A stretch of DNA of 64,000 nt from Acidobacteriota bacterium (GTDB taxonomy: Bacteria; Acidobacteriota; Terriglobia; Terriglobales; Acidobacteriaceae). The position numbers and the translations under genes are program-made. This document shows positions 4,191 through 59,739 of the stretch, in pieces (position 1 is the stretch's first letter; each line of letters starts with the position of its first letter). The stretch spans positions 1 through 64,000 of the forward strand of contig JAJYUB010000012.1 of the NCBI GenBank assembly GCA_021792795.1, in the 5' to 3' direction. The notes under the pieces were generated by a model, which was not told where the DNA came from, made no database searches, and saw nothing but the letters and a program-made list of their open reading frames with translations.

Positions 4191-4312
4191 GGTTGAGGAC
4201 CAGAGCTCCGGTAGATTCACGCTGCATCACCAAACGGCGGGCAATTACGCCTCACCAACCATCGATACGGCCACCGACTGCTGGCCATGATGCTTCCATG
4301 CGGACATCCAGC
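4191..4312 (-). ncRNA. Candidate bridge/seeker RNA region of the insertion sequence
   Basis: About 120 bp lies between the transposase stop codon (4313) and the distal inverted repeat, against only about 40 bp on the upstream side. In IS1111-type elements the guide RNA that pairs with donor and target is encoded in the long non-coding part downstream of the transposase. No RNA fold was computed, so this rests on position and family knowledge only. Confidence 0.4.
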
Positions 4313-5392
4313 CTACTGCCGGATGCGAGAGCGCCCAATCAATTCATCGGTCTGGCTTGCGCCGACCAGGGGCACCCGCGGGCTGCTCTCGATATGGGCG
4401 ATCTCTGGATAACCGACGTTCTGCCGCAACATCCAGTAGAGTCGCACGGCCAACTTCCTGGCCGCCGCCACCTTGGCCACGCCTTTCGGCTTGCGGTGGC
4501 AACGCGCCTGATACTCTCTGCGAAATCCTTCATCCAGCCGCACCGCCGACTGCGCCGCCTCCACCAACAACTGGCGCAGAAAGCGGTTGCCCTGCTTGCT
4601 GATCGCACCCAGCCGCTGCTTGCCGCCCGAGCTGTGCTCGCGCGGAATCAGCCCCAGATAGCTGGCCACCTGATTGCTGTGCTGGAACCGGCTTACATCG
4701 CCGATGGTCAATATAAAGGCCAGTGCTGTAATCGGTCCTACCCCAGGTTGCGTCATCAACAGCCGCGCCTGAGGATGCTCCTCCGCCGCGCCAGCTACTG
4801 CCCGGTCCAACTCGTCGATCTGCCGATGCAACTCCGCCAGCAGATGCAACAAATCTTCGCGTCGCCGCGCCGTCCAGCCTTGCAGAGGAAGCTTTTCCAA
4901 CTCAGCCCTCCCCCGAACGCTCCACAGGGAACTCTTTTTCTGCAGCCCCTTGTTCAGCGCCAGGTGCCGCAATCCGTTCTTCACCCTGCTGCGGATCTCC
5001 ACCAGCTTGTGGCGGTGGATCAACAACTGCCGCATGTCCCGCTGCTCCGCGCTCGGAGTCCACAAGCGCGGAAACCGGCCCTCCATCAACAACTTCAAAA
5101 TGTGTCCCGCATCGCGCCGGTCCGTCTTCTGCCGACGCACATAGCTGGCACGTATCTGGGCCGCATCTCCTACCAGAACTACATGGCCCAACCGCTCCAC
5201 CAACTCAATGAACCACTGGCTGTTGCCGCAAGCCTCCATCCCAACCAGCGCCGGGGCTTCCAGTTCGCCATAGAACCGCTCCGCTTCGCCGTTTCCGTTC
5301 ACCAGCTTCAGCTCTGCTATCTCGCCGGTCTCCGCATCGAAAACCGCAACTTGCTGCCAACTCGGATGAAAATCACAACCTATAATCTTCAT
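4313..5392 (-). CDS. IS110-family transposase (DEDD recombinase)
   Basis: The protein is 359 aa from ATG 5392, chosen because AAGGAG lies just upstream and the family begins with MKIIGxD; an upstream in-frame start would add 13 residues. The N-terminal RuvC-like DEDD domain shows D7 (GCDFH), E53 (GMEACG) and D91/D94 (KTDRRDA). A coiled-coil linker spans about 165-205. The C-terminal Transposase_20 domain begins at about 212 (TQPGVGPITA) and contains a Ser pair, S254/S255 in REHSSGGKQRLG, the likely nucleophile region. All key residues and full length are present, so it looks intact. It acts with a structured guide RNA in this family. Confidence 0.92.
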   Translation of the reverse strand: MKIIGCDFHPSWQQVAVFDAETGEIAELKLVNGNGEAERFYGELEAPALVGMEACGNSQWFIELVERLGHVVLVGDAAQIRASYVRRQKTDRRDAGHILKLLMEGRFPRLWTPSAEQRDMRQLLIHRHKLVEIRSRVKNGLRHLALNKGLQKKSSLWSVRGRAELEKLPLQGWTARRREDLLHLLAELHRQIDELDRAVAGAAEEHPQARLLMTQPGVGPITALAFILTIGDVSRFQHSNQVASYLGLIPREHSSGGKQRLGAISKQGNRFLRQLLVEAAQSAVRLDEGFRREYQARCHRKPKGVAKVAAARKLAVRLYWMLRQNVGYPEIAHIESSPRVPLVGASQTDELIGRSRIRQ

Positions 5393-5595
5393 AGAAGGCT
5401 TCTCCTTGTTCCCACAGTTCCTGGTCCTCAACCAAAAACCATAGGTCCATCGTAGAAGCCTTCGTCCTTATCCCATCAATTCAAGCCTTCCGTTGGTTTG
5501 AGTGGGGATGGAACAATCCCGCATCCAGCCGCATATTCCTTGTGATATAAAGCGCCCAGCACACGATTGAAGTTTCTTAGGCGGCCAAACCAGCC

Positions 5596-7656
5596 ATGCG
5601 CGGACTTCGGTACTTTTTCCCTGTACTTTTTCTCTCGGTTTTTGTGTCCTTCCTCGCGCCGCAGGCGCACGCCCAACAGCAGGTCACGCTGGGCAACGCG
5701 AGCGCCCCACTGACCGGGCCGTGGAAGTTCCACACCGGCGATTCGCCACAGGCGAAGGGCGCAAGCGCCCCGGCGTGGGCGCAGCCGGGCTTCGACGACT
5801 CCGCCTGGGCAACGATGGATCTGACCCCGCCGCCAGGATCGTTCGATCCAGTGATCGGCAGCAGCGGCTACTTGCTAGGATGGACGGCGCGCGGCTACAA
5901 AGGCCACTCCGGCTATGCCTGGTACCGGCTGACAACCAACGTGCAGGATGGGCGGACCCGGCTCGCGCTCAAGATGCCGGACGACGTCGACGACGCCTAC
6001 CAGATCTATGTGAATGGACAGTATGTCGGCGAGTTTGGCCGGTTCACGGCGCGCGGCGCCGCCGCATATTTTTCCCAGCCGCGGGCTTTTCTGCTGCCGG
6101 AGAATTTCCGCGGCGGCCCGGTGACTTTCGCCATCCGCATGTGGATGGGCGCTTTCACTCCGCTGGTGGATCCGGATGCCGGGGGGCTGCATGGGCCGCC
6201 GGTGCTGGGGCAGGCTTCCGCCATAGGCGGCTTGCTCCAGTTGGACTGGGATGCCGAAGATCGCGGAAACTATATCGCTTTTTTCCAAGTTGCGATTCTA
6301 CTGTTGGCCCTGCTGGTGGCCTTTGGCCTTTTCTGGCTTGACCGTAAGGAACCGGCCTATGTTTGGCTCGGTCTCGCGTGCGCGGCCATGCTGTCCTTGC
6401 AGAGCATGAACCTCGTCGCAAACTACACCACCTGGATGGGCGGAAATACAGTCTTTTTGCTCGAGGATGCGGTCCTGACGCCAGCAACCATCGGTATATG
6501 GGTGCTGTTCTGGGCGTATTGGTTTCGGCTGGGCGGGATGGCCCGGCTGCATCGCATAGTCTGGGGATTGGTGGTGGCACTGGGCATGGCTACAGCCATG
6601 TTGCGGGCACCGCTCTATGGCGGACTGGTGCCCGTCCATGCTATTGTCTGGCTTTCGCCGCTCAACCTTGTTTTGAAGCTGTTGTTGGGCGTTTTGCTCG
6701 TCTGGGTGACGGTCCGTGGCATTCGCAAGGACAGGGCCGAGGGCTGGCTGGCTCTCCCCGCTGTTCTGCTGGTTTTCCTCTCGCGGTATTCGGAAGAACT
6801 ACTGGTGCTGCATGTGCCGACGATTGTCTATCCTTTTGGAGTCGGTATCAGCATCAACGGTATCGCTACCATTCTGTCGCTGGCCATCATCACCGTGCTG
6901 CTGCTGCGGCGGTTTCTGCGCGGTCAGCATGAGCGCGAGCAGTTCAGGATGGAGATGGAGCAGGCGCGACAGGTGCAGCAGATGCTGATTCCGGAGGCGC
7001 TGCCGGTCCTCCCCGGCTTTACGCTCGAAAGCGAATACCGCCCGGCGCAGCAGGTGGGCGGCGATTTCTTCCAGATTATCCCCCACGCAACCGACGGCAG
7101 CGTGCTGGACGGGAGTGTGTTGATTGTGGCCGGCGACGTCGCCGGCCATGGCCTGCAGGCGGGAATGCTGGTGGCGCTGATCGTCGGCGCGATTCGGACC
7201 GCGACTGACACCAGTTTCGACCCGCTTGCAATGCTTCAATCGCTAAACCGCCGGTTGATTGGCCGAGGCCAAGCTCATGCGACCTGCCTCGCTCTGCGCA
7301 TCGAAGCCAATGGCGCAGTCGCGCTGGCGAATGCCGGGCATCTGCCGCCGTATCTGAATGGCAAAGAAATGCCGATGGAAGGCGCGCTGCCGCTGGGCAT
7401 GATCGCCAACGCGGAGTTTTCCGTGATGCACTTCCAACTCGCTCCCGGCGACCGGCTGATGTTGATGTCCGACGGCGTGGCCGAGGCGCAGGACGAGCAG
7501 GGCCAGCTCTTTGGCTTCGATCGCATCAACACGATGCTGCAGCAGCCGATCACGGCAGCGGAAGTTGCCACGGCCGCGCAAGAATTTGGGCAGGAAGACG
7601 ACATTAGCGTGCTGGCGGTGACGCGCACGGCAAGCATGCAATCGGAGGTTGCATGA
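5596..7656 (+). CDS. Membrane-bound PP2C/SpoIIE-type serine phosphatase with periplasmic sensor domain
   Basis: The protein is 686 aa. Residues 1-27 are a signal peptide ending A-H-A-Q. Residues about 40-205 form a beta-rich jelly-roll-like extracytoplasmic domain (W-KF, FDDSAW, YVNG). Residues about 225-435 hold seven or so membrane helices, as in 7TMR-DISM receptors. A helical linker (about 438-465) leads to a cytoplasmic SpoIIE/RsbU phosphatase domain with GGDFF, AGDVAGHG, SDGVAEAQ and QEDDIS metal-binding motifs. Proteins of this build dephosphorylate anti-sigma-factor antagonists in partner-switching stress pathways; no kinase or antagonist gene is nearby. Its promoter block (about 5539-5595) is duplicated at 3966-4021. 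A degenerate CAAGCC-type repeat lies upstream at 5481-5507. Confidence 0.88.
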   Translation: MRGLRYFFPVLFLSVFVSFLAPQAHAQQQVTLGNASAPLTGPWKFHTGDSPQAKGASAPAWAQPGFDDSAWATMDLTPPPGSFDPVIGSSGYLLGWTARGYKGHSGYAWYRLTTNVQDGRTRLALKMPDDVDDAYQIYVNGQYVGEFGRFTARGAAAYFSQPRAFLLPENFRGGPVTFAIRMWMGAFTPLVDPDAGGLHGPPVLGQASAIGGLLQLDWDAEDRGNYIAFFQVAILLLALLVAFGLFWLDRKEPAYVWLGLACAAMLSLQSMNLVANYTTWMGGNTVFLLEDAVLTPATIGIWVLFWAYWFRLGGMARLHRIVWGLVVALGMATAMLRAPLYGGLVPVHAIVWLSPLNLVLKLLLGVLLVWVTVRGIRKDRAEGWLALPAVLLVFLSRYSEELLVLHVPTIVYPFGVGISINGIATILSLAIITVLLLRRFLRGQHEREQFRMEMEQARQVQQMLIPEALPVLPGFTLESEYRPAQQVGGDFFQIIPHATDGSVLDGSVLIVAGDVAGHGLQAGMLVALIVGAIRTATDTSFDPLAMLQSLNRRLIGRGQAHATCLALRIEANGAVALANAGHLPPYLNGKEMPMEGALPLGMIANAEFSVMHFQLAPGDRLMLMSDGVAEAQDEQGQLFGFDRINTMLQQPITAAEVATAAQEFGQEDDISVLAVTRTASMQSEVA

Positions 7657-43176: not shown

Positions 43177-44700
43177 CTAAAAACCTGTGGTCCGGATGGC
43201 GGCGTCAATCCAATGGAGCAGCAGGTGGGGAGCGCATCCGAACAGGACCACACCGGCGGCCAGCAGCACGACGACGGCCTGGCTGAGAATCGGCGTCCCG
43301 ATTGTCGTCGCATCGGCGGATGCATTGGCAACTTCTTCGGAAGGATTGGCGACGTAGATGCGCTTGAGCACCTGCAGATAGTAGTAAAGGGAGACGGCGC
43401 TCATCGCAATGGCGAGGACGACGAGCCAGAGCAGGCCGGGGCCGGAACCGAGCACGGAGACGAAGAGATAGAACTTGCCGAAGAAACCGGCGAGCGGCGG
43501 AATGCCGGCAAGCGACAGCAGGAAGATAAACATGCAGCCGGAGAGAACGGGAGCGCGGCGACTGAGTCCGTCGAAGTCGGAAAGTCGATCGCCACCGGTC
43601 CGGTGTTCTACGATTGCGACTACGCCAAAGGCCCCCAGCGTTGCCAGCGCATAGGTAATCACGTAATAGAGAAGCGCGCCTAGACTTTGCTGGGTGTGGG
43701 ACGCGATGGCGAGCAGCATGTAGCCGGCGTGGGCGATGGCGGAGTAGGCGAGCAGGCGTCGGACGCTGCGCTGGACGATGGCGACCAGGTTTCCCAGCAC
43801 CATAGAGAGCGCGGCCACGACGGCGAGCACAGGCACCCAGCCCGTTGTGAAGCGCATCCAGGCGGCGCTGCCTTCCGCGCCGGCAAAGCCGACTGCCATG
43901 ATCTGAAAGAAGATGAAAAAACTGGCGACCTTGGAGGCGGAGGCGATGAACCCGGCGCTGGGCGCGGGCGCGCCCTGGTACACGTCCGGCGCCCAGAAGT
44001 GGAACGGAAACGCGGCGACCTTAAAGCCAAAGCCAATCACCGTGGTGACAATGGCGATGAGCAAAAGCGGATTCAGCGGCGAACCGGTCGCGCCAGAGGC
44101 ATGGATTGCGTCGGCAATACGCGGCAGGCTGGTCGAATTCGACAGGCCATAGAGCAGGCTGAAGCCAAACAGCAGAAAGGCGGCGGACATTCCGCCGAAG
44201 AGGAAATATTTAAGCGCGGCTTCCGAGGAGTGCGGGCGATGCTTGTCGAAGGCGGTGAGGATGTAGAGGGACAGGCTCAGCAATTCCAGTGAAATAAAAA
44301 TGACCAGCAGATCCTGGGAACTGGCAAGAAACATGCTGCCGACGGTGGCGACCAAGATGAGCAGAACGAATTCGCCGATGTGTTCTGTGAAACGGGAATT
44401 TGTGGCCATCAACAGCGTGGCGATGGCGAGCACAAGCAACGCAACCTGGACAAGATGGGTGAGCGGGTTGGCGAGCAGCGTTCCGTCGAGAACATTTACC
44501 TGCGCGGGAGCGAGAACCAGGCGCACGATGGCGAGCACGCAGCCAAGCGACCCCAAGAGGGCGGCGACGGTGAAACGCGTGTGCGTGGGTCGCATCCGCA
44601 GCAATAGAAGATCGACGGCCAGCGCGATCAGCGCGGCTGCGACCACGATGACTTGCGGCAGGGCAAGCTGCCAAAGTTGCGCGTAATTGACGGTGCTCAT
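43177..44700 (-). CDS. nuoN: NADH-quinone oxidoreductase-type subunit N
   Basis: The protein is 507 aa with about 14 membrane helices. It is one of the antiporter-like proton channels of complex I. Key charged residues are present: Glu in FISLELLSLSLY, the TM7 Lys in GFGFKVAAFPFHFWAPD, the TM8 Lys in SASKVASFF and the TM12 Lys in LPPLAGFFGKFYLF. It overlaps the upstream nuoM by 4 nt and is the last gene of the operon. Confidence 0.94.
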   Translation of the reverse strand: MSTVNYAQLWQLALPQVIVVAAALIALAVDLLLLRMRPTHTRFTVAALLGSLGCVLAIVRLVLAPAQVNVLDGTLLANPLTHLVQVALLVLAIATLLMATNSRFTEHIGEFVLLILVATVGSMFLASSQDLLVIFISLELLSLSLYILTAFDKHRPHSSEAALKYFLFGGMSAAFLLFGFSLLYGLSNSTSLPRIADAIHASGATGSPLNPLLLIAIVTTVIGFGFKVAAFPFHFWAPDVYQGAPAPSAGFIASASKVASFFIFFQIMAVGFAGAEGSAAWMRFTTGWVPVLAVVAALSMVLGNLVAIVQRSVRRLLAYSAIAHAGYMLLAIASHTQQSLGALLYYVITYALATLGAFGVVAIVEHRTGGDRLSDFDGLSRRAPVLSGCMFIFLLSLAGIPPLAGFFGKFYLFVSVLGSGPGLLWLVVLAIAMSAVSLYYYLQVLKRIYVANPSEEVANASADATTIGTPILSQAVVVLLAAGVVLFGCAPHLLLHWIDAAIRTTGF

Positions 44701-46208
44701 CGCCAGCCCCCTTGGCGCAGGCCGTTGAACAGCGGCGAATTCAGCGCGGGGACAATGATGTTCAAGAGCACTTGCGGATACAGGCCGACAATGACGCTGG
44801 CGACGATCAAGACGATGGCGCCGAGCCGTTCGGGAAGCGTGATGGGCGGCAGAGGCGCGTGGGGCGCAGCGGAGGCGCGATCGGCTTCCGCAAAGAATGC
44901 TTTCTGCATGGCGCGCCAGATATAGGCAACGCCGACAACGAGGCCCAGACCGACCAGGACGGTGAGGATTGGGAAAGCGTGCCAGACGCCGATGACGATC
45001 ATCAGTTCCGCAACAAAGCCGCTGAATCCGGGCAGGCCCATGCTGGCCATTCCAGCGACGACAAAGGTGGCGGCGGCGAAGGGAATGGCTTTGTTGAGGT
45101 CCATAGGGCCGAGAAGAGCCAGCTCGCGAGTGTGGGTGCGGTCATACACCATGCGTCCGACGACGGCGAACATCAGGCCCGCGAGAATTCCATGGGAGAA
45201 CATCTGCACCACCGCGCCGGAAAGGCCGATCTGGTTCAGCGTCATAAGGCCGAGAAGGATGAAGCCCATGTGGCTGACGCTGGAATAGCCGATGACGAAT
45301 TTGAAATCTTTTTGCACCAGGGCGACCATGGCGCCGTAGACGATGCCGATGACGGCGAGCACGGCGAAGACTTCGCGCCAGGAGCCGAGGCCGAGCACGT
45401 GAAAGCCCCATGGAGCGAGGCCGAGCGGGAACAAGGTCATCGCGACGCGCAGACATCCGTAGGCACCCAGCTTCATGACGACGCCGGCGAGCAGCATGGA
45501 AGCTGCGGTGGGCGCGGCAACGTGGCCGGTCGGGGCCCAAGTGTGGAAGGGCCAGAGGCCGGCAAGGATGGCGAAGCCGACGAAGACCAGCGGGAATGCC
45601 CACATCTGAAAATGCGCGGAGAAGGGAAAGCCGGCGAGGTCGCCGAGGGCCATGGTTTTCGCGCCGGCGACGACGTAGGCGGCGATCAGCCCGACCAGCA
45701 CCATGGCGCTGCCGATGAAGGAGTAGAGCACCAGCTTCATGGCCCCATATTCGCGGCGCGTGGAACCCCAGATGGCGATCAAGAAATATTTGGGGATAAT
45801 GACGATCTCGTAGAAGACGAAGAGCAGCAGCAGATCGTAGCTGAGAAAGACGCCATAGACCGAGCCGATGAGCAGCAGGTAAAACGCGAAGAATTCGTTG
45901 GCGCGATGTTCGATGTTCCAGGAAAACAGAATGCCGGTAACGGCAATGATTCCGGTGAGCAACAGCAAGACCAGGCTGATGCCATCGGCGGCTAGGTGAT
46001 AGCGAATGCCGAGCGAGGGAATCCAAGACACGTCGGTGACGGTGAGCATTTCTCCGGTGCGATGCTGCAGGAAGAACACGAGCGTGATGGCAAACGTGAC
46101 CAGCGCCGCGAGCAGCGCAAGGACGCGCGCCGCCGCGGCGTTGCTTTTCGGCAGCAGCAGGAGCAGAAGCGCCCCGAGAAACGAAATGTAGATTGTCCAA
46201 GCCAACAT
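44697..46208 (-). CDS. nuoM: NADH-quinone oxidoreductase-type subunit M, second copy, TM7 lysine missing
   Basis: The protein is 503 aa with about 14 helices and the NuoM pattern. The TM5 Glu is present (FVFYEIVIIPKYF), as are the TM8 Lys (AGVVMKLGAYG) and the TM12 Glu (GFVAELMIVIG). The TM7 position normally FAVKxP reads FAILAGLWPFHTWAP, so the central pumping Lys (K234 in E. coli) is Leu. A different NuoM is encoded directly upstream (46365-47921), 156 bp away across a hairpin repeat. It overlaps nuoN by 4 nt. Confidence 0.93.
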   Translation of the reverse strand: MLAWTIYISFLGALLLLLLPKSNAAAARVLALLAALVTFAITLVFFLQHRTGEMLTVTDVSWIPSLGIRYHLAADGISLVLLLLTGIIAVTGILFSWNIEHRANEFFAFYLLLIGSVYGVFLSYDLLLLFVFYEIVIIPKYFLIAIWGSTRREYGAMKLVLYSFIGSAMVLVGLIAAYVVAGAKTMALGDLAGFPFSAHFQMWAFPLVFVGFAILAGLWPFHTWAPTGHVAAPTAASMLLAGVVMKLGAYGCLRVAMTLFPLGLAPWGFHVLGLGSWREVFAVLAVIGIVYGAMVALVQKDFKFVIGYSSVSHMGFILLGLMTLNQIGLSGAVVQMFSHGILAGLMFAVVGRMVYDRTHTRELALLGPMDLNKAIPFAAATFVVAGMASMGLPGFSGFVAELMIVIGVWHAFPILTVLVGLGLVVGVAYIWRAMQKAFFAEADRASAAPHAPLPPITLPERLGAIVLIVASVIVGLYPQVLLNIIVPALNSPLFNGLRQGGWR

Positions 46209-46274
46209 CGTTAAAATGCCAGATCCATCGTGTAACTAGAACATCATCATTGATACTGTAATGCGGGCTTCGTT

Positions 46275-46337
46275 CTATCCCACCCTAGCTTCCCACCGAG
46301 CTACGCTCGGATCGTGGGAACCTAGGATAGGGCACCC
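46275..46337. repeat. Nested hairpin repeat between the two nuoM genes
   Basis: Outer arms CTATCC (46275-46280) with GGATAG (46325-46330), then CCTAG with CTAGG; inner arms TTCCCA (46290-46295) with TGGGAA (46315-46320) and CCGAGC with GCTCGG. The GGGCACCC tail ends at 46337. It looks like one hairpin inserted into the loop of another. Transcription of the operon must cross it. Confidence 0.75.
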
Positions 46338-46364
46338 AGACATTACGCTAACAGCGAAATTGCT

Positions 46365-47921
46365 CTAAAACTTGAGTTGCTGCACCATCTGCATCACCGT
46401 ACTGTTCACAAATCCGAGGACCAACTGGGGATAGAGGCCCAGCACAAACATCAATGCAATCGCGGGCGCCAGCGACAGACGCTCAACGGTTGTCAGGTCG
46501 GGCAGCGTGGCCCATGTCTCGTTGAGCGGGCCGGAGAACACGCGCTGCAAAATTCCAAGAATAAAGATGGCCGTCGCCAGCAGGCCGAGCAAAGAGATCG
46601 ACGTGGCCCACGATACCAGCGGGAACGATCCTTTAAAGATCAGAAATTCTCCGACAAAGCCGTTCAGGCCGGGCAGGCCGAGGGAGGAAAAAAGGGCAAT
46701 GCCCATCAGTCCGGTAAAGACCGGAACAACTTTGCGCAGGCCACCAAAATCGTTCAGGCCGCGCAGGCCGCCGGTTCGTTTTTCCAGCATGGCGACGAAC
46801 CAGAAGAGCGTGGCGGCGGTGAGCGCGTGGTTGAAGATTTGCAGCATCACGCCGTTCATGGCCGCATATTTTTCCGTGGTCAGCGCGGCGTCGCCTCCGG
46901 TGAATTTGACCACGGAAAAGATGGCCAGCAGGCAGTAGCCGAGGTGGTTGATGGAGGAGTAGGCAAAGATTCGCTTCAGGTCTTTTTGCGCCAGTGCCGC
47001 ATAGGCGGAAAGGACAATGGTGGCGACCGCGAGCCATAACAGCGGCGTCAGTACCTGCTGCATTTCCGCGCCGAAGATGGGCAGCAGAATGCGCAGGAAG
47101 CCGTAGAGTCCCATCTTCGACATGGCGCCGGTCAACACGATGGTTGTGCCGGTGGGCGCTTCGGCATAGGCGGAAGGCAGCCAGGTGTGAAATGGGACCA
47201 GCGGGACTTTGACCGCGAAGCCGAGAAAAGCTCCGGCAAACAGGATCAGCGCTACGTGGTGCGGCGTGAAGCGGTGCCAGTCAAGTTTCGCGATGACGGC
47301 CGGCATCAGTTGACCCTGCTGCGCCAGTTGTGCCAGGTCGATGAAGTCGAATTTACCGGTCGCCAGAAAGATGGCGAGGAAGGAGAGCAGCAGCGCGATG
47401 CTGCCGACCATGGTGTAGACCAGGAATTGCGTGGCGGCGGCGGTGCTGCGCGATCCTCCCCAGAGCTTGATGAGGAAGAAGGCGGGAATCAGGCTGAGCT
47501 CCCAAAAGATGAACCAGTGGAAGAAATTGAGCGCGGTGAAGGTGCCGAACAGGCAGGCCTGCAGCAGCAACATGAGCGAGAAATAGAGTCCCGCGCGTTC
47601 CTGAATCTGCGACGACGCCAGGATTCCGATGGGGACGACGATGGAAGTCAAGAGCAGCATCAACAGGCCGAGGCCGTCGATGCCCACGTGATACTCGACG
47701 CCGAGAGCGGCGATCCACGGGACTTGTTGTTGAAATTGGAGCGCGCCGGAAGCGGGGGCGAAATGGCCCCAAAGACTCAGCGTCAGTGCGAGGGCCAGGA
47801 AACTGAAGATGAGCGCCAGCCAGCGCGCAACATGTTTGTTGCTGCCGCCGAAGGAAAGCACGAAGAGAGCGCCGACGACGGGCACGAGAGTGAGGACGGT
47901 GAGCCACGGGAAGGCGTTCAT
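46365..47921 (-). CDS. nuoM: NADH-quinone oxidoreductase-type subunit M, first copy
   Basis: The protein is 518 aa. All charged residues thought to carry protons are present: TM5 Glu in IFWELSLIPAFF, TM7 Lys in GFAVKVPLVPFHTWLP, TM8 Lys in GAMSKMGLYG and TM12 Glu in GFVGEFLIFKG. It overlaps nuoL by 4 nt and precedes a second, divergent NuoM. Gene order L-M-M-N means the membrane arm should have four antiporter-like subunits and not three. Confidence 0.93.
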   Translation of the reverse strand: MNAFPWLTVLTLVPVVGALFVLSFGGSNKHVARWLALIFSFLALALTLSLWGHFAPASGALQFQQQVPWIAALGVEYHVGIDGLGLLMLLLTSIVVPIGILASSQIQERAGLYFSLMLLLQACLFGTFTALNFFHWFIFWELSLIPAFFLIKLWGGSRSTAAATQFLVYTMVGSIALLLSFLAIFLATGKFDFIDLAQLAQQGQLMPAVIAKLDWHRFTPHHVALILFAGAFLGFAVKVPLVPFHTWLPSAYAEAPTGTTIVLTGAMSKMGLYGFLRILLPIFGAEMQQVLTPLLWLAVATIVLSAYAALAQKDLKRIFAYSSINHLGYCLLAIFSVVKFTGGDAALTTEKYAAMNGVMLQIFNHALTAATLFWFVAMLEKRTGGLRGLNDFGGLRKVVPVFTGLMGIALFSSLGLPGLNGFVGEFLIFKGSFPLVSWATSISLLGLLATAIFILGILQRVFSGPLNETWATLPDLTTVERLSLAPAIALMFVLGLYPQLVLGFVNSTVMQMVQQLKF

Positions 47922-50008
47922 CGCGTCGCTCCCCAGAGCAGAAAGACGGCCAGCGCAACCAGCGCGACGCCGATCATCCGCAGATAACTTTGCACGCGGC
48001 CGCCTTGCAGCAGCGCTAGAACCTGGCCGCTGCGCGACACGGTTTCGCAGCCCTCGTCGAAGCCCGCGTTCACCACTTTTGTGTCAACCAGATTGTCGAG
48101 CCACGCGAAAGCGAGCACGGTATAGGAGACAGTTTGCACCGCGCCGTTCCAGACCCAGCGATCGAGCCAGTCGCAGATGCGGGACCATGCGGCATTGAGG
48201 CGAAGCAGGGTCGCGCGGTAGAGCGCGTCTACATAAAACGCATGGCCAAGGATGGAGAACGCGTGGGGCTGAAGTCGCCCGAAGGAATCCGGAGCCTCGG
48301 CGCTGGCGATGGGTTTGCGGCCATAGAACCACCAGCCGAGCGCGAGGCCGAGAAGGACGATGAGGGAAGAGGACAGCATGACCGGCAGCAAGCCGGGTTC
48401 TGAGAATGCCGCGAGATGCAGGGCGACTCCCCGGTCCTGCAGAAACGATTGGAACCATGGCCAAGCGGGCGTGCCGACAAATCCCAGCAGCATGGCAAAG
48501 GCCGCGAGAATGGTCAGCGGAATCGTCATGATCGCGGGGCTCTCGTGGGGCGTCGCTGTGGCGTGGGACGAGGCGTGCGCGGAGGCAGCGGTCGATGCGT
48601 CCAGACGCGACGCGCCGGCAAACACGTAATAGACCTGCCGCGTCATGTAAAAGGCGGTCAGCAGCGCGCCGAACGCGCCCAGATAATAGGGCGTCCTGGA
48701 GACACTCCACGTGCTCGCAGCGTGCAGGATCGCATCCTTGCTCCAGAAGCCGGAGAAAAACAGCGGAAATCCGCAGAGCGCCAGCATGCCGACGGCGTAG
48801 GCCAAAAACGTAATGGGCATGAATTTCCGCAGGCCGCCCATTTTGCGAATGTCCTGTTCGCCATTGCAGCCATGAATGACGGACCCTGCGCCGAGGAACA
48901 GCAACGACTTGAAGAAGGCGTGGGTGATGAGATGGAACATTCCCACGGCCACGCCGCCGACGCCCAGGCCCATCATCATGTAGCCAAGCTGCGAGATGGT
49001 GGAGTAGGCGAGGATGCGCTTGATATCGTACTGTGCGATCGCGATGAGCGCGGCGAAGACGGCGGTGATCGCGCCGACCCAGGTGACAACAATCAGGGCC
49101 GTGGTGGGGGTGAGCCCGAGACCGGGTCCGGCATGAGCACTCATCAGCGGATACACTCGCGCGATGAGGAAGACGCCGGCGGCGACCATGGTGGCGGCGT
49201 GAATCAAGGCGCTGACCGGGGTTGGGCCTTCCATCGCGTCGGGCAGCCAGACGTGCAACGGGACCTGACCGGATTTTCCAGCGGCGCCGCAGAAGATGAG
49301 CAACGCGATGCCAGTGGAGGCGGCCATCCCCACAGCGGTTACGTGGACAACCAGCACGGCAAGCGCAGCGTGTTCGAGGCATCCAGCGCCGTTATCGTAG
49401 AACAGCAGCGTGCCGGATTGGGCATACAACCAGGCCATGCCAAGAAAGAATCCAAGGTCGCCAATGCGGGTGACGATGAAGGCCTTTTTCGCCGCGGCCG
49501 CCGCTTCCGGCTTGTGGTACCAGAAGCCGATCAGCAGGTAGGAGGTGAGGCCGACCAGTTCCCAACACATAAAGAGCAGCAGCAGGCTGTTGGAGAGGAC
49601 GACGCCGAGCATGGCCCCGGCAAACAGCGCGAGGAAGCAGAAGAAGCGGGTGAAGTTTTCGTCGTGCTCCATGTAGCCGACGCTGTAGATAAAGATCAGC
49701 AGGCCGACAAAGGTGACCATCACCAGCATGACGGCGGTGAGCGGATCGAGCATCCAGCCGAGCTTCAACCATTGGTTGCCAAACTGAAACCAGCGAAAAT
49801 CGACGACCTGGCGAGTTGCCAGTCCCCGATTGCCGAGCGAGAGAACATGCGCGAAGGCAACGACGGACAGCAGGAAGGAGACGGACATGGAGCCGATGGC
49901 GAGCGAAGCGGCGAGGACGCGATTGCGGCGGCGCGCCAAGGCGCCGATCCCGGCTGCCACAGTCGGCAATGCGGGCACCAGCCACAAGTTTTGAACAATC
50001 CAGGTCAT
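47918..50008 (-). CDS. nuoL: NADH-quinone oxidoreductase-type subunit L
   Basis: The protein is 696 aa, the distal antiporter-like subunit of complex I, with about 16 helices and a C-terminal lateral helix. Functional residues: Glu in FMCWELVGLTSYL, Lys in GKSGQVPLHVWLPDAMEGPTPVS, His in ALIHAATMV and Lys in FFSGFWSKDAIL. A His/Ala/Ser-rich loop lies around 495-515. It overlaps the following nuoM by 4 nt and lies 105 bp after nuoK. Confidence 0.95.
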   Translation of the reverse strand: MTWIVQNLWLVPALPTVAAGIGALARRRNRVLAASLAIGSMSVSFLLSVVAFAHVLSLGNRGLATRQVVDFRWFQFGNQWLKLGWMLDPLTAVMLVMVTFVGLLIFIYSVGYMEHDENFTRFFCFLALFAGAMLGVVLSNSLLLLFMCWELVGLTSYLLIGFWYHKPEAAAAAKKAFIVTRIGDLGFFLGMAWLYAQSGTLLFYDNGAGCLEHAALAVLVVHVTAVGMAASTGIALLIFCGAAGKSGQVPLHVWLPDAMEGPTPVSALIHAATMVAAGVFLIARVYPLMSAHAGPGLGLTPTTALIVVTWVGAITAVFAALIAIAQYDIKRILAYSTISQLGYMMMGLGVGGVAVGMFHLITHAFFKSLLFLGAGSVIHGCNGEQDIRKMGGLRKFMPITFLAYAVGMLALCGFPLFFSGFWSKDAILHAASTWSVSRTPYYLGAFGALLTAFYMTRQVYYVFAGASRLDASTAASAHASSHATATPHESPAIMTIPLTILAAFAMLLGFVGTPAWPWFQSFLQDRGVALHLAAFSEPGLLPVMLSSSLIVLLGLALGWWFYGRKPIASAEAPDSFGRLQPHAFSILGHAFYVDALYRATLLRLNAAWSRICDWLDRWVWNGAVQTVSYTVLAFAWLDNLVDTKVVNAGFDEGCETVSRSGQVLALLQGGRVQSYLRMIGVALVALAVFLLWGATR

Positions 50009-50113
50009 CGGGTCTCAAAGGTCGAACAGCAGTTGAAAGTCTGCGATGGGTTTCGCAGTGAAAGTTTCGCGGTCAAAGTTCCAGTACACAGCAATATGTC
50101 GTCGGTTTCTTTC

Positions 50114-50425
50114 TCAGCCTTTCATCGAGTTCATCCGGTCGAGTTCAGTGGTTTTCGAATGGCGATAGACGGCCAGAACGATGCCCAGGCCGACGGCGGC
50201 CTCCGCCGCGGCAATGCCGATGGAAAAAATGGCAAACATGACGCCGGTGAGCGCTTGCGCGTTTGGTCCATAGCGCCAGAAGGCGATGAAGTTGAGGTTG
50301 GCGGCGTTGAGCATCAGCTCAATGCCGATGAGAACGAGAATGGCGCTGCGGCGCGTGAGCGCGCCTGCCAGGCCGATCGAAAAAATAAGGGCAGAGACGA
50401 GCAGATAACCGGTCAGCGAACTCAT
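50114..50425 (-). CDS. nuoK: NADH-quinone oxidoreductase-type subunit K
   Basis: The protein is 103 aa from ATG 50425, overlapping the nuoJ stop (ATGA). Three helices with the two conserved membrane Glu residues, in IGIELMLNAANLN and AAAEAAVGLG. It forms part of the E-channel next to NuoJ. Confidence 0.94.
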   Translation of the reverse strand: MSSLTGYLLVSALIFSIGLAGALTRRSAILVLIGIELMLNAANLNFIAFWRYGPNAQALTGVMFAIFSIGIAAAEAAVGLGIVLAVYRHSKTTELDRMNSMKG

Positions 50426-50922
50426 GCCGTCCCCCGTTTTTCCTGCATTGCAACGACGACAGCGCCGATCAATGCGGCGGTCAACAGCAGGCCCATGATT
50501 TCCAACGGCAATACAAATCTGTGCATCAGAGCGTCGCCGATGGGCCGGACGGCGGCCTCGGCTTGCGGCGGCAGGGGCCTCGAAGAAGTGGAGCTGGAGA
50601 CAATCGCCCAACCGAGAACGGCAAACACCAGCGCGGCGATCAGGCTACCAGCCAACCAGAAGGAGGAAAAGATCGACTCGGTGGTTTGCGCGGGTTTTTG
50701 CGTCATCATAATGACGAAGACGGCCAGGATGGCGACCGCGCCGACGTAAACGAGGATCTGCGTGAGGCCGACGAATTGCGCGCCCAGTTGCAGATAGAGG
50801 GCCGCCAGTCCGGCAAAGCCCAGGGTGAGGGCCAGGACGCAATGGACCAGATTGCGCATGGCCATCGTGGCCACGGTCCCGGCGATGGTGATGGCGGCAA
50901 GAATGAGGAAGGTCGCTGTCAT
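50422..50922 (-). CDS. nuoJ: NADH-quinone oxidoreductase-type subunit J
   Basis: The protein is 166 aa with five helices. The conserved TM3 segment QILVYVGAVAILAVFVIMM, whose helix contains a pi-bulge in known structures, is present. It precedes nuoK with a 4-nt overlap and follows nuoH by 113 bp. Confidence 0.93.
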   Translation of the reverse strand: MTATFLILAAITIAGTVATMAMRNLVHCVLALTLGFAGLAALYLQLGAQFVGLTQILVYVGAVAILAVFVIMMTQKPAQTTESIFSSFWLAGSLIAALVFAVLGWAIVSSSTSSRPLPPQAEAAVRPIGDALMHRFVLPLEIMGLLLTAALIGAVVVAMQEKRGTA

Positions 50923-51035
50923 GTCAGGTTCGACGAGTTCTCCAATGTAGTTCCAACTCTTTCAGTGACCGAAGATCAGACTGTCACAGTTGCCATACGA
51001 TCGGCAGTGACAGCCATCACGAAATTATTCTGCGA

Positions 51036-52223
51036 CTAGTCTGCAAACCGATAGGTCCTGGCGGCAAACTTCTTGCCCTGCTTCAGGCCGCGACTGAGCA
51101 GGAAGGCTGGAACGATCAGCAGCGCCGCGCAAACTAGCCAGCGTATCACGCCGCCTGGCATGAAATGCCAGACGCCGGCGGCGAACACGTTGATCAGCGT
51201 CATGGGCAGCATAAATTGCCACGCAAAATTCATAAGCTGGTCCATGCGCAGGCGCGGAAGCGTGCCGCGAATCCAGATGAAGATCGCAATCATGAGCAAT
51301 AATTTTGCGAAGAACCAGAGATACGACGGAATCCATGTCAGAAACGAAAAGGGCGCGGCCCATCCGCCGAGAAACAAGGTGATGGCGAGGCCGCTGGTGG
51401 CAAACATGCCGAGATATTCGCCGAGAAAGAACAGGGCAAATTTAAAGCCGGAATATTCAATGTAATAGCCCGCGATGATTTCCGATTCGCCTTCCGGCAG
51501 ATCGAAGGGGGACCGGTTGGATTCGGCGGTGGCGGCAATCATGAACAGGTTGAAGCCGGCGAACCCCCACGGTGTCAGGACGAACCAGTGCGGCCAGATG
51601 CCGGAGTAGCCGGTCTGCATGTTGACAATGGCGACGGTGGAAAGCGAGCCGGCCGCCATGATGACGACGATGGAGGCGAGGACCAGCGGGACTTCATAGC
51701 TGATCATCTGGGCGATGGCGCGCATGGCCCCGAGCAGCGAATATTTATTGCGGCTGGACCATCCTGCCATGAAGACGGCGAGTTCCACCAGCGTGCCGAC
51801 GGCGAAAAAGAACAGGACGCCGGCATTTAGGTCAACGAGCGCCATGTTGCGGCCGACGGGCAATACGGCATAGGCCAGAAATGCGGCGATGACCAGCAGC
51901 ACAGGCGCCATAAAATGCACCAACTGGTCGGCAGTGCGGGGAACCAGGTCTTCTTTGGTGAGCGATTTCACGCCATCGGCGATGGGCTGAAAAAAACCGG
52001 CAGGGCCGACGCGGTTAGGGCCGTAGCGGTTCTGGATCCGCCCCAGACCTTTGCGCTCCAGAACGGTGGTAATCGCGAACAAGAGCGCAAACACCAGGAC
52101 GATGGCGACGACGGAAAGGATGACATCGGCGATGGACTGGAATTTGATAGGAAGATAACCGACGACGCGATGCTGCAGGGTGACAAAAATCTGGTCGGCT
52201 TGCTGGATGGGGGGTGGGGTCAT
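51036..52223 (-). CDS. nuoH: NADH-quinone oxidoreductase-type subunit H
   Basis: The protein is 395 aa from ATG 52223, which overlaps the nuoI stop; the frame extends upstream but with unrelated residues. It lines the quinone tunnel with eight helices. Conserved loops: LERKGLGRIQNRYGPNRVGP, ESNRSPFDLPEGESEIIAGYYIEYSG and RGTLPRLRMDQLMNFAW. Here nuoI precedes nuoH, the reverse of the usual H-I order. Confidence 0.95.
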   Translation of the reverse strand: MTPPPIQQADQIFVTLQHRVVGYLPIKFQSIADVILSVVAIVLVFALLFAITTVLERKGLGRIQNRYGPNRVGPAGFFQPIADGVKSLTKEDLVPRTADQLVHFMAPVLLVIAAFLAYAVLPVGRNMALVDLNAGVLFFFAVGTLVELAVFMAGWSSRNKYSLLGAMRAIAQMISYEVPLVLASIVVIMAAGSLSTVAIVNMQTGYSGIWPHWFVLTPWGFAGFNLFMIAATAESNRSPFDLPEGESEIIAGYYIEYSGFKFALFFLGEYLGMFATSGLAITLFLGGWAAPFSFLTWIPSYLWFFAKLLLMIAIFIWIRGTLPRLRMDQLMNFAWQFMLPMTLINVFAAGVWHFMPGGVIRWLVCAALLIVPAFLLSRGLKQGKKFAARTYRFAD

Positions 52224-52831
52224 TTCTCGCTCCCAGCAGGAACAGGTGGAGGGGTCGCCGGAGCGGCGGCGGGCTTGGCTTCGGCGGCAGCCTTGGCTTT
52301 GGCAGCCGTTTTGGCCCGGTCGGCGGCCAATTGCGCATCCACGGCGGCGGCTTCCGTGGGGTGAATCTTGTGGTAATGTTCGTTCGACTTGGCGAGATGT
52401 TTCTTGTCCCACAGCAGACCGCTGAAGCGGTTGCCGGTACTCAGTTCAAAGTCGGTGTCCATTTTGATGGCATCGAAGGGGCAGACCTCGACGCAGATCT
52501 GGCAGCTCATGCAGACGGAGATGTCGATGTTGAAAACGGTGGGGTAAAACTGGGGCTTGCCGACGGCGTCCGGCTTCTTGTCGGTACTTTTTTCAATGAA
52601 GATGCATTTGGGCGGGCATTCCTTTTCGCAGATGAAGCAGGAGACGCAGCGCAGCCCTTGTTGCCAGTCTTCGCCGTCGTAGACGAGGAAGGGAAAATTG
52701 CGATACGCCTCAATCTGCGGCAACCGCTCTTCCGGATACTGGACGGTGGTCAGTCGATTTTTGCTGACATAGCTGCCCAGGAAATTCCGGGCGGTTTCCG
52801 CCAGACCCTTCAGGATGCCTTCACCGAACAC
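52220..52831 (-). CDS. nuoI: NADH-quinone oxidoreductase-type subunit I (2x[4Fe-4S])
   Basis: From GTG 52831 (GAGG 8 nt upstream) the protein is 203 aa. The frame opens further to TTG 52900, but those codons are made of a dispersed repeat (ATTCTGAGCGTAGCGAAGAA) and are probably not native. Two ferredoxin-type clusters are bound by CVSCFICEKECPPKC and CMSCQICVEVCP. The C-terminus has a tail of about 45 residues rich in Ala, Lys and Pro, not found in standard NuoI. It passes electrons toward NuoB. Confidence 0.92.
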   Translation of the reverse strand: MFGEGILKGLAETARNFLGSYVSKNRLTTVQYPEERLPQIEAYRNFPFLVYDGEDWQQGLRCVSCFICEKECPPKCIFIEKSTDKKPDAVGKPQFYPTVFNIDISVCMSCQICVEVCPFDAIKMDTDFELSTGNRFSGLLWDKKHLAKSNEHYHKIHPTEAAAVDAQLAADRAKTAAKAKAAAEAKPAAAPATPPPVPAGSEK

Positions 52832-52869
52832 AGTTTCAACCTCGACTTCAAAGTTCCAAACAATGCCTA

Positions 52870-53031
52870 GATTCTTCGCTACGCTCAGAATGACGAGCAA
52901 TTACTTTTTTGCTTCGTTTCGGTCGGAATGACAATTCAATTCAACCCCACTCAAGCCATACAGCGGCTTCCACCCCAGCGAGCAAAAATCGCTCGCCGGG
53001 GACCCCGGCTTGAATGGGCCACCCGGCCCGC
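52870..53031. repeat. Repeat cluster between nuoD and nuoI
   Basis: 52870-52894 is a copy of the short ATTCTTCGCTACGCTCAGAA repeat. 52947-53031 is a branched member of the modular family: outer TCAAGCC (52951) with GGCTTGA (53007), an inner CCCCAGCGAGC/GCTCGCCGGGG hairpin, and a GGGCCACCC tail. It sits inside the nuo operon. Confidence 0.7.
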
Positions 53032-53044
53032 ATCTGGCCGACGT

Positions 53045-54202
53045 TCATCGGTCCACTTCGCCCATCACAATGTCAATGCTCCCTAAAATCACTACAACAT
53101 CGGCAACGTTGCGGCCGATGCACAACTCCTCCAGCACGGTCAGGTTCATCATGCAGGAGGAACGCACGCGATACCGATACGGGTTCGGCGTTCCATCGCT
53201 GATGAGATAAAAGCCCAACTCCCCCTTGGGCGCCTCAATGCGCCCATAGGCTTCACCGGGTTTCGGCTTGAATCCGCGAATCTTTGTTTTTGGATCGACG
53301 ATCGGGCCGTCGGGGATGTCTTTCAATGCCTGGTTGAGAATGTTGAGCGACTCGCGCATTTCCAGCAGACGGACCATGTAGCGGTCGTAGGTGTCGCCAT
53401 GCTCGCCCAGCGGAATTTTGAAAGCGAACCGATCGTAGATGCCGTATTTGTCCACTTTGCGCAGGTCGTAATTGACGCCGGAAGCGCGCAGAATGGGGCC
53501 AGTGACGCCGGCATTGACGGCAAATTCCTTCGATAACACGCCCACGCCCTGGGTGCGGGCCATCAGTATCTCATTGGTGGCCAGCAGCCGTTCAAACTCA
53601 TCCAGAAAACGCGGCAGGGTGGCGGCAAATTGCTTCGCGTGGTCCAGCCATCCCGCGGGAAGATCGACGCGGCAGCCGCCGAAACGCATGTAGTTGCACA
53701 TCATGCGCGCGCCGGTAAGCGACTCGAACAGGTCGAGGATGGTTTCCCGCTCGCGAAAGGCGTACATCAGCGGCGTTCCGCTGGCGCCCATGTCCTGGGT
53801 CAAAAATCCGATGAGGGCCGCATGGTTCTGGAAGCGGGTCAGCTCCGCGGTAATGATGCGGATGTACTCGGCGCGTTCGGGAACTTGAATTCCAGCGAGC
53901 TTTTCGACCGCAAGCGCGTAGGCCCAATTGTTGGTGAGGGAGCAGAAATAGTCCAGCCGGTCGGTGTAGGGCATGGAGCCGAGGTAAGTTTCATTCTCGG
54001 CAATTTTTTCGTGGTTGCGATGGAGATACCCGAATACCGGCTTCAGCTTGACGATGCGTTCGCCATCCAGAACCACATCCATGCGGAAAACGCCGTGCGT
54101 GGAGGGATGCTGCGGCCCCATCGAGACTTCCAGAAACTGGCCTTCGCCGTCATCGGTGGGCGATTTTGAAAGGATGCGGACGGGCTCGGTCGCGGCGATC
54201 AT
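53045..54202 (-). CDS. nuoD: NADH-quinone oxidoreductase-type subunit D
   Basis: The protein is 385 aa, the 49-kDa quinone-site subunit: [13 protein letters not shown] holds the conserved quinone-site His, then [12 protein letters not shown] and [13 protein letters not shown]. It ends [10 protein letters not shown], the standard C-terminus. It overlaps nuoC by 4 nt. It is followed by nuoI and nuoH, not by nuoE, nuoF and nuoG. Confidence 0.96.
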
Positions 54203-54831
54203 TGCGCCCCCATGACGGTGCGGTGTTGGCGGGCGCGTTCCAGGACCTGGTCATGCGCCGTGGGCTCGTATTCGTAATCGTCGGGCTCGACGTAGTCCTT
54301 GCGCATGGGGTGATCCTGGAAACCATCCCACATAAGGATGCGGCGCAGATCGGGATGCCCGTCAAAGATGACGCCGTAGAGATCGAAGATTTCACGCTCC
54401 TGAAAGTCCGCGCTGCGCCAGACGTGGGTGAGAGACGGCAGATGGACCCCCTCGGCGCGATCTTCGGTGCGCATGCGGAGAATGACGGGGCCGTGTTTCT
54501 TCTCCATGGAGTAGAGGTGGTAGACGACCTCAAGATGGCCGATGGTCTGTGTCTTCCTGATCTCCTCGACCTCTTGTTCCGCGCCGTCCACAAGTTTTTT
54601 CGCTTTGACTTTTTCTGAAATTTCTTTACCCGGCCAGTCGATGCCAGTGACGTTGGAGCAGTAATCGAAGCGGAGGTGTTCGGCATCGCGCAAGAAGGTG
54701 GCGATGGCGACCGCATGTGCCGGATCGATCCGCAGAGAGTGCTGGCCCGACGGGCTGGGGTTGCCGACGATTTCCAGCACGCAGCCGGGGACGTTCGCTT
54801 CCATTTCGGATTTAATGTTTTCCAGCGTCAT
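54199..54831 (-). CDS. nuoC: NADH-quinone oxidoreductase-type subunit C
   Basis: The protein is 210 aa, the 30-kDa subunit. Signature: [20 protein letters not shown], then [28 protein letters not shown] and HPMRKDY. It has a charged insertion ([21 protein letters not shown]) at about 70-92. Its start overlaps nuoB by 20 nt and its end overlaps nuoD. Confidence 0.95.
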
Positions 54832-55453
54832 CCGTCCCTGCCAAAGAAATATTCACTAAAGGAGCGTCCCATACCTCGGGATTTTGCGGCGGTTCCAAAT
54901 CGTGCGCGCCAAACCGCGGCACGATAAATTCGCTGGGCGCTTCGGCCTGCAAATGGCGGGGCCGGTCGGCTCCGGTGAGAGATTGCTTGTCGATTAACTT
55001 TTGCAACGTCATCAACGCGTCAATCAAGGCTTCCGGGCGTGGCGGGCAACCGGGAATATAGACGTCGACAGGGATGTAGCGATCAATCCCTTTCAGCACG
55101 TTGTAGCCCTGTTTGAAGGGACCTCCTGAGATGGCGCAGGCCCCCATGGAGATGACGTACTTCGGTTCCGCCATCTGGTTATAAAGGCGAACCACCTGGG
55201 GGGCCATTTTTTTGGTGACGGTGCCGGCGACAATCATCAGGTCCGCCTGTCGCGGGGAGGGACGAAACACCTCCGCGCCGAACCGCGCCATGTCGTAGCG
55301 GGCCATGCTGGCGGCGATCATTTCAATGGCGCAGCAAGCGAGGCCGAAATTCAGCGGCCAGAGGGAGTTTTTGCGGCCCCAGTTGTACAGTTCCTGCAGG
55401 GTGGTCGCAACGATCCCTTGCTTTCTCAACTCTGTTTTCAGATGTTCATCCAT
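54812..55453 (-). CDS. nuoB: NADH-quinone oxidoreductase-type subunit B
   Basis: The protein is 213 aa and carries cluster N2, the last Fe-S centre before quinone. Ligands: tandem Cys in [10 protein letters not shown], Cys in [12 protein letters not shown] and Cys in [12 protein letters not shown]. It is preceded by nuoA with a 76-bp gap. The C-terminal 50 residues are an extension of low similarity to standard NuoB. Confidence 0.96.
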
Positions 55454-55529
55454 CAGAGAAAACCTTCAAGTGTTGCGGTTGGTTCGAACCTGAGAATCCC
55501 GGGTGCAGCCTTCGTCGCCGGCCTGGAGC

Positions 55530-55901
55530 TTAACTCCAGACCAGCACTTGTTTCTGATACGCCCAGACCAGACCTTCGACCAGCAAAAGCAAGAAAACCA
55601 GCATGGCCATTCCCGCTGCGAATGTCAGGCCGGCAAAGGCCACGGCAAAGGGCAGAAGAAAGACCGCTTCGATATCGAAAACCAGAAAAATGATTGCGTA
55701 CAGGTAGTAGCCGGGATGGAACTGGATCCAGGCATCGCCCGCCGATTCCAGGCCGCACTCGTAAATTGCATTCTTGCTGGGGCCGGGCTTCCGCGGAGAA
55801 AATTTCCATGCCCAAATCCACGCGAGGGCAAGCGGCGCAATGGCAAAACCGACGCCTGCGGCCAGCAGAACAAGAACAGGAAAATAGGGGCTGTTTGTCA
55901 T
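55530..55901 (-). CDS. nuoA: NADH-quinone oxidoreductase-type subunit A
   Basis: The protein is 123 aa from ATG 55901 (12 more residues if an upstream start is used). Three helices and the conserved loop YECGLESAGDAWIQFHPGYYLYAIIFLVFDIEA, matching ND3. It is the first gene of the 12-gene nuo operon and is transcribed away from nifJ. Confidence 0.95.
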   Translation of the reverse strand: MTNSPYFPVLVLLAAGVGFAIAPLALAWIWAWKFSPRKPGPSKNAIYECGLESAGDAWIQFHPGYYLYAIIFLVFDIEAVFLLPFAVAFAGLTFAAGMAMLVFLLLLVEGLVWAYQKQVLVWS

Positions 55902-56031
55902 CTTGTCTGAACTCTCTACCGTATCAGATTCACGCACGCGTGCGAACCGCTAAGAAAAAAAATACACTTCAATTGTAACGATGCGTTGTGATGGAGCGCA
56001 CATCTGGGGACCCTTTCATTGTAGGAAGATT
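55902..56031. promoter_or_regulatory. Divergent promoter region nuoA/nifJ with a 12-bp palindrome
   Basis: The 130-bp gap must hold both promoters. CGCACGCGTGCG at 55933-55944 is a perfect palindrome and a candidate operator. An AT-rich stretch (AAAAAAAATACACTT, 55955-55969) follows. Shared control of complex I and pyruvate:ferredoxin oxidoreductase is inferred from the arrangement. Confidence 0.45.

Positions 56032-59735
<3,704 letters not shown>

Positions 59736-59739
<4 letters not shown>

Follow-up and report, generated by a model that had tools for sequence, protein, structure and literature searches.

Complex I with two NuoM subunits (2M complex I) reportedly goes back to the work of Chadwick et al. 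2018 in the ISME J. A lengthened lateral helix (HL) of NuoL, for which 26 aa are given, is described as the hallmark of these complexes with their fourth antiporter subunit, and the additional subunits are taken for pumps as well, with 5 to 6 protons in total (PMC9040806); a complex with duplicated nuoM has also been reported in Acidobacterium capsulatum (PMC11636273). The lysine of transmembrane helix 7 (TM7) is termed absolutely conserved in antiporter-like subunits (PMC7419157), and current models of how complex I pumps treat the pair that it forms with the glutamate of TM5 as the switch (PMC9271201, PMC9802314, PMC11496545). Here we describe a 2M complex I operon on a stretch of 64,000 nucleotides from an Acidobacteriota bacterium (assembly GCA_021792795.1, contig JAJYUB010000012.1, positions 1 to 64,000 of the forward strand; hereafter the window), the second NuoM of which (NuoM2) has leucine in place of the TM7 lysine. 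Going by its sequences, NuoM2 is a member of a natural NuoM clade devoid of this lysine, within which one subclade provides the acidobacterial and verrucomicrobial 2M complexes with their second NuoM. The literature searched by titles and abstract openings contained no report of a missing TM7 lysine in NuoM, and we make no claim to a first report.

Absence of the TM7 lysine in NuoM2

With respect to family membership, NuoM2 scores 429.8 bits against the NuoM profile TIGR01972 of NCBIfam (cut-off 263.8), and as expected of a NuoM it has glutamate rather than lysine in TM12 (Glu401, corresponding to E. coli E407). In the alignment with the PDB set its segment FAILAGLWPFHTW falls onto FAVKMPVVPLHGW of E. 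coli NuoM, and Leu215 takes the place of Lys234 in TM7 there as well as in a MAFFT alignment; since both alignments agree, misalignment is ruled out. The leucine had already been proposed in an earlier reading of the sequence alone, together with the retention of the TM5 glutamate (Glu134, E144), the TM8 lysine (Lys246, K265) and the TM12 glutamate, and with the presence of the TM7 lysine in the other antiporter subunits of the window, and all of this is borne out, the respective lysines being Lys238 in NuoM1, Lys245 in NuoL and Lys227 in NuoN. That reading had also named another TM7 lysine in the same place as the observation that would speak against it; a search of TM7 for further lysines returned none, so that takeover by such a residue is ruled out. 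The axial histidine pair is likewise kept in NuoM2 (His313 and His339, corresponding to H322 and H348). At the site of E. coli Met150 in TM5, NuoM2 has an invariant lysine, Lys140, in the motif IIPKYFL. The AlphaFold2 (AF2) models of NuoM2 and NuoM1 have a mean predicted local distance difference test score (pLDDT) of 92.1 and 92.5, respectively. The NuoM2 model matches chains of the NuoM/NdhD/ND4 family with VIA Z of 52-54 in the best rows; in it the breaks of TM5 and TM7 lie at residue 136 and after residue 216, respectively, and Lys140 belongs to the second part of TM5.

Leucine was found in every ortholog read. It is present in all 13 rows of the same family (12 loci besides that of the window) and in 80/80 genome_contigs loci, which are the best 80 of 465 relatives retrieved by way of two peptide patterns, FYEI[VA]I[IV]P and KYFLIAIW (of these, KYFLIAIW presupposes Lys140). 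Leu215 is therefore no chance error, and a sequencing or frame error behind it is ruled out. In E. coli numbering, which is used from here on for residues at aligned sites, the same 80 loci also have E144, K265, E407, H322, H348, Gly236 and Lys150 without exception, and their NuoM1 neighbours have Lys234 in 74/74. By their titles the 80 loci belong to Acidobacteriota and Verrucomicrobiota, with one from Rhodanobacteraceae and one titled only "bacterium"; of those with names, the closest to the window's NuoM2 come from acidobacterial metagenome-assembled genomes (MAGs), several of them titled Acidobacteriaceae or Granulicella. At E <= 1e-100, NuoM2 was detected in 13 of 396 Acidobacteriota genomes, the window's included and all of one family, and two scans of viral_contigs found no relative. 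Taken over Acidobacteriota and Verrucomicrobiota, Leu234 is present in 112/112 NuoM2 rows, and the 36 of these that were found without a peptide pattern all combine it with Lys150 and Gly236. Glycine at the Pro236 site is equally constant (112/112), as are E144, K265, H322, H348, E407, H241, W243 and H248 (112/112 each).

Two individual loci may be mentioned separately. In L062, which is titled as a Rhodanobacteraceae MAG and is perhaps mis-binned, the two-NuoM operon is Acidobacteriaceae-like, with a 79% identical NuoM2, and the NuoM2 gene of genome G011 (L023:1501-3012, minus strand) contains one in-frame TGA, so that either the gene is broken or the assembly is in error.

A leucine-type clade extending to single-NuoM complexes

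The Leu-type NuoM clade predates this four-antiporter complex and extends to single-NuoM complexes of Verrucomicrobiota and Bacteroidales. As found by tblastn, the NuoM of Phocaeicola, encoded in an L-M-N operon, has leucine at the Lys234 site, and so have those of Prevotella nigrescens and Bacteroides finegoldii, the Bacteroidota sample consisting of three plasmid-labelled Bacteroidales records and one Bacteroidales-like sequence. With the Phocaeicola NuoM as query (E <= 1e-60), 84/387 genomes match in the phylum of the Verrucomicrobiia MAG G448, a figure that is no census of the phylum, as the query is itself Leu-type and favours that type and the other 303 genomes were left out. Sixty regions were taken from these matches, 53 of which contain a single Leu-type NuoM adjoining NuoL and NuoN (one of the regions stops short of nuoN), the remainder being five with a Lys-type NuoM, one two-NuoM operon and one with a Bacteroidales-like NuoM. 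The single-NuoM Leu-type complexes keep K229 of NuoL in 53/53 and K217 of NuoN in 55/55 cases. At about 20 kb, 15 single-NuoM loci could be compared: nuoE, F and G stand before nuoH in 11 of them and not in four, and nuoA was undetected in those 11 nuoE-F-G stretches. Given nuoE, F and G in 11/15, at least some single Leu-type loci are of the NADH-dehydrogenase type, with two TM7 lysines for three antiporter subunits. Leucine as a marker of the fourth subunit is therefore rejected, and so is the idea that each complex should have three TM7 lysines.

By group, the Lys234 site holds leucine in 58/58 Verrucomicrobiota-type single-NuoM rows and 4/4 Bacteroidales-type rows, and lysine in 94/94 NuoM1 and 34/34 acidobacterial canonical-type rows. 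In a tree of 60 rows from which nine trait columns had been removed (the groups were thinned to this number, and outgroups, two MrpD-like rows and the loci L185 and L199, which have long branches, were omitted), NuoM2, the Verrucomicrobiota type and the Bacteroidales type fall together on one side of a branch with a support of 100/99.8 and one state change. A quick tree of 96 rows with NuoN as outgroup places the Leu type inside NuoM, with a Shimodaira-Hasegawa-like approximate likelihood ratio test (SH-aLRT) value of 93 for the Leu clade; accordingly, the lysine was most likely lost, and lost once, the derived state of leucine resting on this NuoN-outgroup placement. The sequence-only reading had asked whether leucine might be a clade marker, and by the NuoM2 rows and the tree it is. 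The bearing on the stoichiometry of the four-antiporter complex which that reading had seen is real, and it extends beyond that complex to the single-NuoM complexes with leucine.

The TM7 lysine that might be demanded of a NuoM is lacking in NuoM2 and in every member of the Leu-type clade. As it is absent across the clade, this residue cannot define NuoM, and membership has to be decided by profile and tree. Locus L199 encodes at 3980-5623 (minus strand) a divergent Leu-type NuoM without the TM8 Lys265 (Gln) and the axial His348 (Gly), which is possibly a decaying copy.

Candidate substitutes and the case for a rerouted module

The residue table comprises 313 NuoM-type rows, rows of up to 430 aa and near-duplicates having been dropped and the window and its own locus both being counted. 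At the Lys234 site, 175 rows (window included) have leucine, 131 lysine and seven, MrpD-like, asparagine. Amongst the 175 Leu rows there are 113 with Lys150, all of them NuoM2 including the window, 60 with His259 and two with neither, while Lys150 or His259 occurs in none of the 131 Lys234 rows. Broken down by subclade, Lys150 is found in 112/112 NuoM2 rows and His259 in 57/58 rows of the Verrucomicrobiota type and 3/4 of the Bacteroidales type; of the two rows with neither, L156 has a histidine four residues further along TM8, and the other is the degenerate-looking L199. His259 on TM8 aligns with NuoL His254, and a histidine at the TM8 bulge is described as added in MrpA and as presumably replacing the TM8 lysine in NuoL (PMC7419157). 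The single NuoM of the Verrucomicrobiota type, e.g., L204:3977-6025, further has His143 beside the TM5 glutamate and Lys264-Lys265 on TM8 in 57/58 rows. Altogether, sites 143, 150, 236 and 259 carry distinct residue sets in the three Leu subclades, each set being nearly fixed. As leucine arose once, the 175 Leu rows are not independent cases, and the pattern is one of three subclades with three residue sets.

What the aligned proteins show directly is the leucine and the clade that bears it, the residues found along with it, the conserved axis and the longer HL. For their explanation we propose, at a probability of roughly 0.55, that NuoM2 would be a rerouted but working antiporter module. The TM7 lysine would have given way to leucine once in an old NuoM clade, before the 2M complex of these phyla arose, and the basic partner of the TM5 glutamate would have been rerouted, in NuoM2 to the TM5 residue Lys140, six residues past Glu134, and in most single NuoMs of Verrucomicrobiota and Bacteroidales to the TM8 histidine at the place of NuoL His254. 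Since the uptake-channel residues, the TM8 lysine, the two axial histidines and the TM12 glutamate are kept, NuoM2 might still let through both protons and the charge relay that runs along the membrane arm. The TM5 lysine may thus stand in for the TM7 lysine; we infer that the function of the latter has passed to Lys140 or His259, and that NuoM2 pumps.

Published mutants are in line with the need for a substitute. Mutation of M_K234 in E. coli reportedly causes loss of function (PMC3046159), and in Paracoccus denitrificans Nqo13 the Glu-Lys pair and the terminal glutamate (E141, K232 and E405) are reported as essential for catalysis, which is also abolished upon replacement of the uptake His246 by Phe (PMC9802314), these four residues being equated with E. 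coli E144, K234, E407 and H248 by a constant numbering offset. As the pair and the uptake histidine are reported to be essential there, plain loss of the lysine without a substitute is hard to accept. The single Leu-type NuoMs in nuoE-F-G operons, in turn, should work without a TM7 lysine.

Neutral drift would make leucine and Lys140 accidents of the lineage, the TM7 lysine simply mattering less in these enzymes, which may work at low driving force. The single origin of leucine and the different residue sets at 143, 150, 236 and 259 in the three subclades would fit this explanation; however, the sets are nearly fixed within each subclade, and loss of the lysine is reported to stop both model enzymes (PMC3046159, PMC9802314), so that we regard drift as improbable. 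A changed ion, i.e., transport of another cation or Mrp-like cation/proton antiport at a site that would include Lys140 or His259, would be suggested by the combination of histidine and lysine on TM8, which is the arrangement of MrpA (PMC7419157). As the Na+ site of Mrp is placed elsewhere in the same source, NuoM2 itself lacks the TM8 histidine and no cation site was observed, though no search aimed at one was made, we regard a changed ion as very improbable.

Several points weigh against a rerouted module. Lys150 and His259 could be lineage signatures unlinked to leucine, and Bacteroidales NuoM has Met150, which implies that the new lysine is dispensable in some Leu-bearing NuoMs. Judged by its position at Glu+6, after a proline at +5, Lys140 need not face the old lysine site, and a profile alignment of the two NuoM halves, by which it was to be placed through pseudosymmetry, gave no significant match. 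The uptake residue H248 is tyrosine in NuoM1 (94/94) and in the Verrucomicrobiota type (58/58) and is therefore no clean mark of function, and the conservation of NuoM2 fits a structural or relay role equally well. Finally, in two-NuoM loci the TM7 lysine is present in NuoL in 65/65, in NuoN in 101/102 (one gap) and in NuoM1 in 94/94 rows, as opposed to 0/112 in NuoM2, and the other four-antiporter type, with two MrpD-like subunits, repeats this pattern: MrpD2 has asparagine in 17/17 rows, and in the 10 complete two-MrpD loci MrpD1, NuoM and NuoN keep the lysine. If the TM7 lysine marks a pumping unit, neither four-antiporter type adds a proton.

These counts lend support to NuoM2 as a relay or spacer, in which charge would be passed on via Glu134, Lys246 and Glu401 without a proton of its own, and the 2M complex would pump no more than an ordinary complex I with its three Lys-bearing antiporter subunits. 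Against this stands that all tested uptake and axis residues of NuoM2 are invariant, and that in 86/93 paired loci NuoM2 resembles its counterpart in the window more than NuoM1 does its own, with a mean of 73.4% versus 67.8% (pairs with NuoM1 at least 98% identical to the window or with fewer than 300 aligned positions were dropped, and duplicate locus ids were left unmerged); NuoM2 is thus more constrained than NuoM1, which speaks against a decaying spacer. Moreover, three-antiporter complexes with the same leucine have only two TM7 lysines, so that three is no general rule, and in Verrucomicrobiota and Bacteroidales this NuoM is no mere fourth-subunit spacer, being the sole NuoM of a three-antiporter complex. 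NuoM mutants of P. denitrificans are reported to lose rate and not H+ stoichiometry (PMC9802314), which argues against a lone module dropping out, and a spacer leaves Lys140 unexplained. Of the two options offered by the sequence-only reading, a changed path and a spacer, the former is hence favoured by the co-occurring new lysine or histidine and by the strong conservation, the latter persisting as a rival that we consider rather unlikely.

Two side observations concern the subunits compared here. The TM6 lysine (E. coli K173) is mostly lost in NuoM1 (46365-47921) and its orthologs, with glutamine in 92/94, and is kept by NuoM2 in 112/112. The two-MrpD loci that provide the 17 MrpD2 rows are L133, L267-L270, L186, L192, L226, L233 and L240, and, as partial loci, L173, L176-L179, L182 and L183.

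Should a rerouted module be the correct explanation, a lysine termed absolutely conserved might have been dispensed with clade-wide in three phyla, the base of the pair having moved to the TM5 lysine in NuoM2 and to the TM8 histidine in others, a generalisation that we hold at somewhat less than even odds. If true, charge and place rather than the residue in TM7 would define the ion-pair switch, and a fresh argument would be needed for the additional proton attributed to 2M complexes. The count of TM7 lysines lends no support to the simple argument of one more proton per two electrons for 2M complexes. A Lys-less clade with candidate substitutes offers ready-made double mutants for testing the need of the TM7 lysine in the switch, and bears on the number of protons that may be moved by a complex with four antiporters.

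The operon and its surroundings

The genes are arranged on the minus strand in the order nuoA-B-C-D-I-H-J-K-L-M1-M2-N (43177-55937; Table 1), the two nuoM genes being flanked by nuoL and nuoN (K-L-M1-M2-N). Between two alignment anchors, the HL segment of NuoL measures 110 aa in the window compared to 79 in E. coli, and over 57 single-NuoM rows it ranges from 73 to 82; in two-NuoM loci it is exactly 110 aa in 56/65 rows, and 109-118 in the remainder. With this lengthened helix the operon has the hallmark of 2M complex I and can be classified as such at the level of its genes. No nuoE, nuoF or nuoG was found between 30 and 64 kb of the window, and the sole NuoF match of the genome lies on contig C14, close to a second antiporter-like gene set. 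A pyruvate:ferredoxin oxidoreductase gene is divergent from nuoA; among the 27 two-NuoM loci in which the sequence ahead of nuoA exceeds 400 bases, nine have a homologue there, and this neighbourhood is therefore not general.

Table 1. Coordinates in the window of NuoM2 key residues, the genes of the nuo operon and the divergent neighbour
Feature	Position	Strand	Basis
Leu215 of NuoM2, codon CTT, E. coli Lys234 site (TM7)	45564..45566	-	
Lys140 of NuoM2, codon AAA, TM5, E. coli Met150 site, six residues past Glu134	45789..45791	-	
Gly217 of NuoM2, E. coli Pro236 site, TM7 break	45558..45560	-	
Glu134 of NuoM2, TM5 Glu, E. coli E144, kept	45807..45809	-	
Lys246 of NuoM2, TM8 Lys, E. coli K265, kept	45471..45473	-	
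Glu401 of NuoM2, TM12 Glu, E. coli E407, kept	45006..45008	-	
nuoM2, second NuoM, Leu-type, 503 aa	44697..46208	-	Open reading frame (ORF), TIGR01972 profile, AF2 model
nuoM1, 518 aa, TM7 Lys238 present	46365..47921	-	ORF, profile
nuoL, 696 aa, TM7 Lys245 present	47918..50008	-	ORF, profile
NuoL HL segment between two alignment anchors, 110 aa	47993..48322	-	
nuoN, 507 aa, TM7 Lys227 present	43177..44700	-	ORF, profile
nuoK, start inferred from translation	50114..50425	-	
nuoJ	50422..50922	-	
nuoH ORF, true start possibly further in	51036..52412	-	
nuoI	52220..52900	-	
nuoD	53045..54202	-	
nuoC	54199..54831	-	
nuoB	54812..55453	-	
nuoA	55530..55937	-	
Pyruvate:ferredoxin oxidoreductase, divergent neighbour, context only	55981..59739	+	TIGR02176, 1780.7 bits (cut-off 911.35)

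Comparison with known complexes

The operon resembles 2M complex I in carrying nuoM twice and in the longer lateral helix of its NuoL (PMC9040806). Whereas the extra subunits have been credited with pumping in the published account, the second NuoM lacks the TM7 lysine in every member examined here. Compared to E. coli NuoM, Nqo13 and ND4 (PDB 3rko, 8qby, 8e9g), NuoM2 has the same fold (VIA Z 53.6-54.2) and shares with them the TM5 glutamate, the TM8 lysine, the TM12 glutamate and the axial histidine pair, but it has leucine for Lys234, lysine for Met150 and glycine for Pro236. The single NuoMs of Verrucomicrobiota and Bacteroidales are of the same clade as NuoM2 and share its leucine at the TM7 lysine site, but each is the sole NuoM of a three-antiporter complex, and they mostly have threonine or methionine at 150, serine or alanine at 236 and the TM8 His259 instead of Lys150, with His143 and Lys264 added in the Verrucomicrobiota type. 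The "green" complex I of rhizobia, with two MrpD-like subunits (name from PMC9040806), also has four antiporter-like subunits, one of them without the TM7 lysine; there, however, the Lys-less subunit is MrpD2 with asparagine, two such rows falling outside the NuoM rows in the NuoN-outgroup tree.

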